Part shown: positions 27,554 to 63,331 of the stretch, in pieces
Position numbering within the stretch: the first letter of the stretch is position 1
Layout of the letters: every line of letters starts with the position of its first letter
Assembly: GCA_000231825.2 (NCBI GenBank)
Contig: JH720394.1
Location: 115,283 to 179,282 of the forward strand
DNA: 64,000 nt
Source: Tetrahymena elliotti 4EA
Lineage: Eukaryota > Ciliophora > Oligohymenophorea > Hymenostomatida > Tetrahymenidae
Direction of reading: 5' to 3'
The notes under the pieces: generated by a model
Seen by the model: only the letters and a program-made list of their open reading frames with translations
Database searches by the model: none
What the model was told of the DNA's origin: nothing
Program-made: the position numbers and the translations under genes

Positions 27554-29121
27554 TCAAGTTATACATCTCAATATTTTTTAGATAAATAACTAACTTAATA
27601 TTAATCTTAAAATTAAAAATTAAAATAATTATTTTATTAGCTAATTTAGAACTATTTTAATTTGAAATTTCAATAGAATTATTATCTTCTTATTATTTAT
27701 ATTTAATAAATAATTAAGGATTAATTTGAAGTAAGTAAACAAATAAATAAACATTTACCAAGCTGATTAACTAGAATTAAGATATAATTTAGAAACAACT
27801 TAATTATAATCTCTAAAGGGTAAGTGAGAACGATGCTATAACCAATTTCTATGGTGCCATTTACAATCTTAGGAGTCAATAAAATGAAGAGCATAAGCAT
27901 GACGAGGTATTGAAGATTCATTATACTTGGACAGATGAACGTAGTCTCCATGGAATATGAACATAGATCTTCTTTTTACTTCTATAGGAACAGCTTTTTC
28001 TACATCATACTACTTCTCTATACCTTCTAAATAAAATTAATCTCCTCTTTCTGTTCTATAACAAAAATGAGATGTTGGCTGTTTGTGGCTGCCTTAAATA
28101 CCCCACATACATCCGTTTTCAATGGTAGCATCATGCAAGGCAAACCAAAATCCTATAGCTGAAGATTAAGGAACTGTGATTAAGAAAGTATTATCTGTAT
28201 GTGGAGGAACCTAATAAATAAATAAGTAATTAAATTAATAAATAAATAAATGCTTTTTATGAATTGATTGATAGGGAAAATATATTTTTTTTAGATTAAT
28301 TGACTTTCAATTACTCCTGCAAAAAAGATTATTTTATTTTTTTACTGATGAAAAGTGAAATATTTTGAGAAAATATGTTGATTCATTTAAATTAAATTTG
28401 TTTATCCCTTCAATAATTAAGGTGAAGAAATTAAAATAAAATAAAAAACTGTTTGGATATTATCAAAAATACACACTTTAATGAAAAATACTTATTTTCT
28501 TAAATTTAATGAGTAAAATAGTTGCTGGAGAGTTTTAAAGTGAGTGAGATGAAAAAAATATATATATTTTAATTTTAGTTGAACTATTACAGGTGTGCCT
28601 ACTCTTTGGTTTTTGAATATGTACATGCTTTAAACACATTAGGGTTTTTGGTATCCAATTTAATTTAGAATATATTATAGCAGAGGTCTATAACTGAATT
28701 TTTCAAAAACAGGGTCTAAATCATGCAAAGCATGACCCATTTTGTTCAACACTTNNNNNNNNNNNNNNNNNNNNNNNNNNNNNNNNNNNNNNNNNNNNNN
28801 NNNNNNNNNNNNNNNNNNNNNNNNNNNNNNNNNNNNNNNNNNNNNNNNNNNNNNNNNNNNNNNNNNNNNNNNNNNNNNNNNNNNNNNNNNNNNNNNNNNN
28901 NNNNNNNNNNNNNNNNNNNNNNNNNNNNNNNNNNNNNNNNNNNNNNNNNNNNNNNNNNNNNNNNNNNNNNNNNNNNNNNNNNNNNNNNNNNNNNNNNNNN
29001 NNNNNNNNNNNNNNNNNNNNTGTTGTTCGGTAAATATATGATTAAAAGGAATAGCAGAGAACTTGTAGACTTGTTAGTTTAGGATATATTTGTTACTTGT
29101 CAAAAATCTTTTGAGTATCAT
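27554..29121 (-). CDS. phytanoyl-CoA dioxygenase domain protein (PHYHD1-like), copy A, interrupted by assembly gap
   Basis: A non-haem Fe(II)/2-oxoglutarate oxygenase paralogous to copy B. Exon 1 is 29,121-28,591 and contains the N gap. Exon 2 starts at 28,210 with VPPHTDNTFLITVPQ. The HTD and the later His in FHGDYVHLSK are the iron ligands. The coding sequence is otherwise intact and very close to copy B. The codon that is TGA in copy B is TGG here (27,758-27,760), so the frame runs on for about 67 more codons to a TGA at 27,554. That tail is A+T-rich and unlike the enzyme, so it is either a real extension or a decaying end. The start ATG-ATA-CTC corresponds to ATG-ATG-CTC in copy B. Confidence 0.85.
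28755..29020. other. assembly gap (266 N)
   Basis: The run of N lies inside exon 1 of dioxygenase copy A. The matching interval in copy B is about 248 bp. Replacing 266 N by 248 bases makes exon 1 the same 513-bp length as in copy B, so the real gap is probably 248 bp. Confidence 0.95.
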
Positions 29122-31814: not shown

Positions 31815-32709
31815 TTTACAATTTTTAATTTTTAGACTTTGATTTTGAAAAATACAATTTATTTTTTGTTTTTTTATTATTTTTATGAATGAGGATTTAT
31901 GTAAACACAAAGTATAATATCTCTCTTCTTCTATAATATCACTTCTAAATTATCTGATAATCTTATAGAAAATATCAAATTAAAAAGTTATTTTTTTCTT
32001 TATTTGTTAGAATGAAAGTTTAGGTTTTATTTGATCATTTTTATCACAGCTTCCTTGAATTTCCCACAAAAAATTTTATTCTAGCTTTGAATTACATTTT
32101 CTTCTAGATCTTCAAGATTTATTTTTAAAAAATAATAAATTCTTCTTACATGTCATCACTAACTAGATGCAAAATCTAAACAATTTCTATTTGTGATAAA
32201 ATATTTTTTCAATAAAATTAATTATTAAGTATTAAATATTATCATCTAAGCTGTTTATGCGAAGCTACAGTAATAAAATCATCTAATTAACATTTTAATA
32301 ATTAAAAAAAATGTTTAAAAATGAGATTTTCAAGAATAAACTATGAAAGATTGAAGAATACAATTTCAAATAGAAATAAAGAAGAAAAAAAAACTTTCAC
32401 TAAAAATAAAAATCAGAAAAGAAAAAAAAGTAAATGATTAAATTACCTTAATATCCAAAATTTCAGTGTATAGCCCTGAAAAGGCAGTACCTTAGGGTAC
32501 TATACATATATATATTAAAGAAAAAAAATTAAAATAGTAAAGTTAAATATAAAAATAAAATTTTTACTTTTTTTCCTATTTTGAAATAATAATACATTAT
32601 CTTTAGAAAAATTGTTTCTGATATTAGTATTTCATTAGAAATATGATGAGAAATAAATTTAGCTTGATTTTTTATTAAATTACAGGCATTTAATATAAAT
32701 ATAATCATT
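31815..32709. other. intergenic with structured hairpin
   Basis: No gene was seen. The spacer holds the 5' flank of dioxygenase copy B, including sequence shared with copy A near 32,217-32,330, and the hairpin at 32,467-32,506. Confidence 0.5.
32467..32506. other. nested perfect stem-loop, candidate RNA structure
   Basis: The stem TGTATAG (32,467-32,473) pairs with CTATACA (32,500-32,506). Next, CCCT pairs with AGGG after a TA bulge. Inside that, after a GAA bulge, AAGG pairs with CCTT around the loop CAGTA. All 15 pairs are Watson-Crick, and the patch is far more G+C-rich than its surroundings. It lies about 200 bp upstream of the LRR gene. The function is unknown. Confidence 0.6.
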
Positions 32710-62334: not shown

Positions 62335-63331
62335 ATGGCTAAGCAAGAATTAAAAAATAATAAGTAAGAAGAGGCTTCATTTAAAGAGGCATTACACTAC
62401 TAGATTGAATATTCAAAGCAGTAATATCTAAATTTAAAAAGTGAATAGATAAAATGAATTGAAAAAGATAGAACAAAAAAATAATTTACCTTTCAACTAT
62501 CAATTGCAAATATTTGTGGAAACTAGTTAAATCCGTTGGTTCTTACATTCAATTAGAAGGTTTGTTGAAAAATAAAAAGGTCTGCTTAAATATTAAAAAT
62601 TAGGATTAACACTGTGCACTGTATTGTTTTATGGTATTTTACTATAAATATGAATTAAAAAAGGCATGAACCAAACAAATATGACTTTGAATATAAAGAT
62701 GAATATCTCTATATCAGATTAATCAGCAATGGCAATGAAAAAATAGATAAAAAAGTAAAAGTTGGTATTATTTAATTTCCATGTAATTTATCAGATATTT
62801 CTAAAATCGCTAAAGGTTGTGGTTATTCATATTCACCTTTCGAATATCAATCAGTAATTATTACTAAAAATAATAAGAAAGAATTAAACTTAGAGATATA
62901 TGTAGAAATACGGGAACGAGCTCAAAATCCTAAAAGTAAAACAGCCCTCAACATTTTCTCGACAACGAGAAAATGTTGAGGGCTGTTTGACTTTTAGGAT
63001 TTTGAGCTCGTTCCCGTATTTCTACATATATTTAGAGTTGTTGAAAATCAAAAACCAATAGAAATAAAATAGAAAATTTTTGATGGAGAATGATGATCAT
63101 TATGAACAATTATGCTTTGGAGATCTAATTAATTTGGATTAAACTTAATAATAAGAACTAATAAAAAAAAAAGAAGAAATTTTTATTTCTCATATTGATC
63201 TTTTATTGAATAAATTTGAAACATAACAAATTACAACAAATTAGTTTCTACATAATAGGATACTTAGGATAAAAATTACACTTGAAAAATTATCTCAATT
63301 ATTTTTACTCTTAAAACAGAAAATTTATTGA
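62335..63331 (+). pseudogene. hypothetical gene interrupted by a palindromic insertion
   Basis: Exons are 62,335-62,440 (ATG, MAKQELKNNKQEEASFKEAL), 62,472-62,559 and 62,604-62,895, separated by introns of 31 and 44 nt with phases that fit. Readable segments include KYDFEYKDEYLYIRLISNGN and GCGYSYSPFEYQSVIITKNN. The 62,896-63,031 palindrome interrupts the third exon; reading into it gives a TGA at 62,977. Skipping the element and one copy of the flanking TTAGAG returns to the same frame (63,038 onward, MENDDHYEQLCFGDLINLDQ) and continues to a TGA at 63,329, for 260 codons in total. The family was not recognised. If the window is germline DNA the insertion could be removed during development; otherwise the gene is disrupted. 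Confidence 0.65.
62890..63037. mobile_element. 136-bp palindromic (fold-back/MITE-like) element with 6-bp target duplication
   Basis: The element spans 62,896-63,031. The left arm 62,896-62,961 and right arm 62,966-63,031 are 66 bp each and pair at 65 of 66 positions; the only mismatch is 62,938 against 62,989. The loop is ACAA. Termini are ATATATGTAGAAATACGGG and its complement. TTAGAG occurs immediately before (62,890-62,895) and after (63,032-63,037), as expected for a target-site duplication. The arms are markedly more G+C-rich than the host sequence. No transposase is encoded and no second copy exists in the window. The superfamily cannot be assigned from a single copy. Confidence 0.85.

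Follow-up and report, generated by a model that had tools for sequence, protein, structure and literature searches.

What does a long and nearly perfect palindrome represent in a Tetrahymena contig: a small mobile element, or what remains after something else was removed? The window (the whole 64,000-nucleotide stretch of DNA that was analysed) forms the end of contig C108, in an assembly of 90 Mb and 134 contigs. The palindrome that an earlier note had described in it was confirmed, with two arms of 66 nt each that are identical at 65 of 66 positions, an ACAA loop and TTAGAG at both borders (Table 1). The predicted RNA fold of these 148 nt, which lie at C108:178172-178319, has an energy of -112.9 kcal/mol, compared with -26.0 +/- 3.6 for 200 shuffled sequences (z -24, none as good). 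Nine weak Rfam matches in the stretch were all under gathering scores and were taken as chance; there were none in five other loci. A small-RNA study of Tetrahymena with repeat classes has reportedly been made. The evidence described below indicates that the palindrome is very probably the scar of a programmed DNA elimination, by which a germline transposon was removed, and not an element itself.

Table 1. Features of the palindrome, in positions of the window
Feature	Position	Strand	Basis
TTAGAG, left copy of 6-bp target-site duplication	62890..62895		sequence
Left arm (type A), interpreted as a stub from one end of a transposon	62896..62961	+	family alignment
Outer ATATAT of left arm; candidate boundary signal, 66-70 bp from centre	62896..62901	+	distance compared with PMC6547420
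GGG of GAAATACGGG, ~50 bp from centre, G toward cut	62912..62914	+	putatively A5G5-like, PMC4780704
Centre ACAA; presumed joint of the cut ends, to within a few bases	62962..62965		centres vary between copies
Right arm (type A), interpreted as a stub from the opposite transposon end	62966..63031	-	one mismatch to left arm
GGG of right arm, minus-strand equivalent of left-arm GGG	63013..63015	-	sequence
Outer ATATAT of right arm; candidate boundary signal	63026..63031	-	distance compared with PMC6547420
TTAGAG, right copy of 6-bp target-site duplication	63032..63037		sequence

The assembly is macronuclear and of Tetrahymena, because telomere repeats occur at contig ends, TAA and TAG are read as glutamine in long open frames, Tetrahymena proteins are matched and piggyBac domains occur. 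A pattern of four CCCCAA repeats has 153 matches in the genome and, among the matches listed, those that can be placed sit at contig ends (matches on C15, C34, C37, C62 and C81 are excluded from this placement, and the reversed-pattern control is uninformative for such a repeat). One protein of the window shares 78-80% identity with its matches in Tetrahymena utriculariae, T. malaccensis and T. thermophila, and the source appears to be a species other than these three. Within the window, 266 consecutive N occupy 28755-29020.

The location inside an exon that the earlier note had assigned to the palindrome is not supported. Joining the two flanks yields a frame of 179 codons that is unremarkable by openness, codon use and homology: 432 of 8457 random 540-nt frames of the window (5.1%) likewise contain no TGA, and the codon-use scores of the left and right halves of the joined frame are reached by 35% and 46% of random 240-nt windows, respectively. 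A genome search with the joined-flank protein gave its own locus and no paralogue, and none of 154 candidates reached E <= 0.01 in a protein database that includes Tetrahymena proteins and from which only proteins of similar length are considered. In T. thermophila, eliminated sequences are described as strongly under-represented in exons, in the accessible text of PMC3276166.

The further genomic copies for which the earlier note had proposed a check do exist. A 68-nt arm query gave at least 59 matches (40 of 76 candidates scored), and the 21-nt arm core, allowing up to two mismatches, occurs at 61 genome sites compared with 0 for the reversed pattern; since both queries match many sites, the palindrome is no single-locus fold-back artefact. 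The queries were the arm, its core, the second half of a mixed copy and the outer end shared by the arms; the core pattern detects only A-type arms that reach nt 65, a bias of which the outer-end pattern is free. At least 126 distinct arm copies are present in the loci read (A 57, D 38, B 21 and E 10), these counts being lower bounds as only part of the matching loci was retrieved. The four types have the ATATAT outer end in common, and the alignment extends to its first base in 125 of the 126 copies. G runs within the arms are three or four long, with D arms mostly having CGAG or CGTG instead. The single difference between the arms of the window copy, AAAAC versus CAAAC, distinguishes two frequent variants within the family, found in 10 and 12 arms. 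Type A arms show three variable sites (nt 7-12, 17-19 and 43-47) in nearly all combinations, which suggests recombination or conversion among germline elements; the states of these sites mostly agree between the two arms of one pair.

Mirror pairs and single arms number 40 each in the loci read; a further group of arm copies ends in assembly gaps, bringing the unpaired copies to 48. An assembly or sequencing artefact, namely a fold-back chimaera, would draw on the 8 of these 48 that end in runs of N, which mark the sites as hard to assemble, but the 40 pair loci have different flanks, their own duplications and their own arm variants, making such an origin scarcely credible. Arms running into gaps were seen at L005, L009, L010, L023, L094, L097, L101, L111 and L119; in one case (L023/L037) the second arm is found again beyond the gap, bordered by an AAAGAG duplication. 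Palindromes apparently disrupt this assembly.

The mirror pairs bear out the insertion mark with a 6-bp duplication that was read at the window copy. An exact 6-bp duplication borders 34 of the 40 pairs (33 of 39, together with the later-recognised L143, TCTGTG), and no longer exact duplication exists at zero shift. The duplication has one mismatch in L106, L066 and L067 and is shifted by one base in L026, while the edge of L056 was misplaced and shows an AATAAT duplication once moved. One D-E pair (L095) is without a duplication, which counts against an elimination scar. Left and right hexamers of different pairs match in only 4 of 1482 combinations. Pairs therefore carry different 6-bp target duplications, from which it follows that a transposon inserted. 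The duplications have many sequences and none is of the fixed TTAA kind, consistent with the earlier exclusion of the piggyBac type. Maverick/Tlr-type transposons, considered as a candidate source, make a 6-bp duplication and would carry an rve-type integrase gene. Exact duplications also border mixed pairs, both A-B (L075, the same site as L014) and D-E (L096).

The length of the pairs is almost fixed, at 136-141 nt in total in 38 of the 39 gap-free pairs (L056 is overstated by 2); the exception, L112 with 117 nt, counts against an elimination scar. Their centres vary (for example ACAA, ACAAAT, ACAAT and ACGA), as imprecise junctions would, and their outer ends lie 66-71 bp from the junction on either side. 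Wherever the script placed the CTCGA anchor in an A or D arm, it ends at nt 67, bar the misplaced L056 and with the exception of both arms of L113 and one arm each of L143, L067 and L072, in which it ends at nt 60 or 57. These four loci have 7- or 10-nt internal arm deletions, and their totals are still 138-139 nt. The inner ends of L113, L143 and L072 extend into a CTTTTTC-type sequence, which continues in a longer stub, L115. The compensated deletions and this continuation together argue that the inner end tracks distance from the outer end, not sequence, and that the stubs derive from a longer parent. In L115/L141 (C88:135282-135355), D-arm inner sequence runs for ~50 nt further, giving a stub of ~120 nt, and L144 (C71:338278-338362) holds the same 78-nt stretch as L115 (94% identical) without the outer end. 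L115 and L144 stop at an identical inner point; fixed-distance elimination leaves both unaccounted for, and they are counted against it.

These observations bear on the MITE or fold-back type of insertion proposed in the earlier note. Its mobile DNA, dispersed family, terminal inverted repeats and target-site duplications stand; the self-contained element probably does not, given the fixed length, the mixed pairs and the single arms. Such an element would be a palindrome of ~138 bp whose movement depended on a germline enzyme acting in trans and generating 6-bp duplications; breakage of copies at the hairpin loop, with loss of one arm and its flank, would have produced the single arms. It would account for the inverted arms, the fixed outer end and the 6-bp duplication. 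No rve integrase match was found in the macronuclear assembly, a result that a germline-limited element would equally give and that, for a fold-back element, would place its enzyme in trans or among lost genes. However, an internal deletion should shorten an element that is copied as a unit, and it did not do so in L113, L143, L072 and L067, where the length was kept; pairs of mixed arm types also speak against it. The self-contained reading is probably wrong, and is regarded as unlikely.

The single arms provide a separate line of evidence. In the 40 that do not end in gaps, family sequence stops 67-71 nt from the outer end (a script set the break relative to a family anchor, or at 68 or 69 by default where it found none). 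The outer 6-mer is repeated near the break in 3 of the 40, compared with 2.0 in a control, so that single arms are without the duplication. The idea that single arms are halves of rearranged pairs was considered and rejected, as matching outer 6-mers in the expected sense occur in 3 of 1128 combinations of two unpaired arms, with 1 in the same-sense control. Two loci have inner ends joined to a (TA)n-tailed repeat containing TACCCTA (L045/L030, an A arm, and L082, a B arm), and they fit junctions with two different boundary signals. The other 38, in which unrelated DNA follows the break, were used for an analysis of the far side. Six motif patterns were profiled there in 10-bp bins. TATA showed a peak at 60-69 bp, with 23 matches and at most 8 in any other bin. 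An inverted TATA was present 60-72 bp into the far-side DNA at 18 of the 38 loci, in a window that was fixed after the profile had been seen; other 13-bp windows have TATA at a mean of 4.0 and a maximum of 9 loci, 1000 rotations gave a mean of 4.7 and a maximum of 14, and the comparison with pooled windows (39/380) gave a Fisher value of 9e-8. At the equal distance outside the outer end, TATA was found in 6 of the 38. No peak of comparable strength was obtained at these 38 loci for CCC, GGG, TACC-type or AGGGTA patterns on the far side; the 11 far-side GGG matches at 20-39 bp come partly from a G-rich locus (L046) and were left unused.

Among the 18 loci with a far TATA, the outer 6-mer recurs near it in only one (L118), on the inner side, which is the wrong place for a duplication; the far signal is therefore not a lost second arm from the same insertion. 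Inverted signals are thus found at about equal distances from the junctions, 66-71 bp in pairs and, in single arms, 67-71 bp on the near side with a far-side TATA at 60-72 bp. Where GGG is present, in 23 of the 38 single arms, the run ends 48-52 bp from the junction. A self-contained fold-back element has no place for a mirrored TATA beside its single arms. The 20 single arms without TATA at 60-72 bp count against an elimination scar. The single A arm at L035 immediately precedes a frame that resembles, by eye, a P-type ATPase without a start; this junction possibly trimmed a gene.

The (TA)n-tailed repeat (core GTACCCTAGGGTAC) also occurs in the window at 32450-32515 and at L125-L134, with 270 genome matches at up to 3 mismatches. 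In 2 of 12 copies tested (L125 and L133) it has 13-nt flanking repeats unmatched in 200 shuffles. As the published boundary motif TACCNT lies within it, its copies may be stubs that a different germline element, perhaps a LINE, left behind. Its junctions with arms A and B (L030, L082) are what a short retroposon might show, with head-to-head pairs arising by twin priming, in which reverse transcription starts on both strands of a 6-bp staggered cut, and single arms as one-sided insertions, and the mixed pairs, variable centres and single arms would agree with this. Nevertheless, a constant 6-bp duplication, a fixed arm length and the far-side TATA all speak against retroposition, as do the outer ends of A, B, D and E arms, which are without variation in tail length, and this origin is considered very unlikely.

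The programmed elimination of a transposon would proceed as follows. At the germline (micronuclear) site, a 6-bp target-site duplication would enclose a transposon whose inverted ends measure ~70 bp or more. In the developing macronucleus, the machinery would cut ~66-71 bp in from each outer end, a fixed distance counted from signals that the ends themselves bear, presumably the outer ATATAT, the A-then-G tract or both. The signal function of ATATAT and GGG is suggested by analogy with another species. The cutting enzyme may be a Tpb2-like protein derived from piggyBac; 12 matches to piggyBac domains are present on 6 contigs of the assembly. The interior would then be lost and the two stubs fused by imprecise end joining. 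Because the stubs are inverted copies, their joint would read as a near-perfect 136-bp palindrome between the copies of TTAGAG, and the near-identity of the arms would reflect the two inverted ends of one transposon. Single arms would be junctions in which one boundary comes from a transposon end and the other from an unrelated inverted TATA signal. In a search of the assembly for a full-length partner, the matches listed contained, by eye, one facing pair within 15 kb (L057 and L068 on C25), whose outer 6-mers differ. Three RVT_1 matches were found in the assembly.

An elimination scar of this kind would be a new form of a known process, and a palindromic scar would be a natural test of how elimination boundaries are set: duplication, transposon ends and fixed-distance junction are all legible, so that the origin of boundary signals becomes directly testable. 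Deletion boundaries in Tetrahymena number in the thousands, and it has been speculated that their flanking signals derive from transposon ends (accessible text of PMC6698652), or from transcription-factor sites or other transposable elements (accessible text of PMC6547420). The present data lean somewhat towards transposon ends that carry their own elimination-boundary signals, with the flanking regulatory sequences of Tetrahymena being transposon stubs left outside the fixed-distance cut. If true, the ends of the transposon itself would be tied to the signals by which the cell positions its cuts, the deletion variants L113, L143, L072 and L067 would serve as an in-genome test of the distance ruler, and the legible 6-bp duplications would show the system before the origin of its signals fades. 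In ciliate somatic genomes, perfect palindromes and apparent MITEs may likewise be excision scars that are not present as such in the germline.

For Tetrahymena, no account of excision scars that are palindromic and bordered by target duplications was recognised in the open-licence literature, as far as its accessible text extends. Blepharisma germline MITEs (PMC9942856), compared by title only, are also short inverted-repeat elements of a ciliate, but belong to the germline. TTAA exonic elements cut by domesticated piggyBac proteins likewise represent programmed elimination of transposon DNA; as described in the accessible text of PMC5182062 and PMC3276166, they leave a single TTAA, whereas here two non-TTAA duplications and ~136 bp remain. 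Transposon termini of T. thermophila show a bias towards retention in the macronucleus (PMC5182062), resembling the present loci in incomplete removal that leaves terminal sequences; in its accessible text this retention is a coverage bias of curated elements, without fixed length, duplications or palindromes. The M element has an A5G5 tract 45-50 bp outside, with G toward the cut (accessible text of PMC4780704); like this Lia3-related tract, the arms have an A-then-G tract with G toward the cut, here with GGG at 48-52 bp, but their G runs are three or four long and that of the M element five. A close likeness is with the boundaries of internal eliminated sequences in T. thermophila as set out in the accessible text of PMC6547420: flanking inverted repeats at nearly equal distances on either side, TATA pentamer inverted repeats at ~65 bp for 2700 eliminated sequences, TACCNT ~62 bp from boundaries, and G enrichment at 40-60 bp for Lia3-affected eliminated sequences. 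Shared with these are near-equidistant inverted signals, TATA at ~65 bp and junctions that vary by a few bases, with ATATAT here at 67-71 bp from single-arm junctions compared with ~65 bp for TATA there. Unlike those boundaries, the flanking repeat here is a whole transposon end of 66-71 bp with a visible 6-bp duplication, and for this reason the joint is a perfect palindrome, a form absent from the description in that text.
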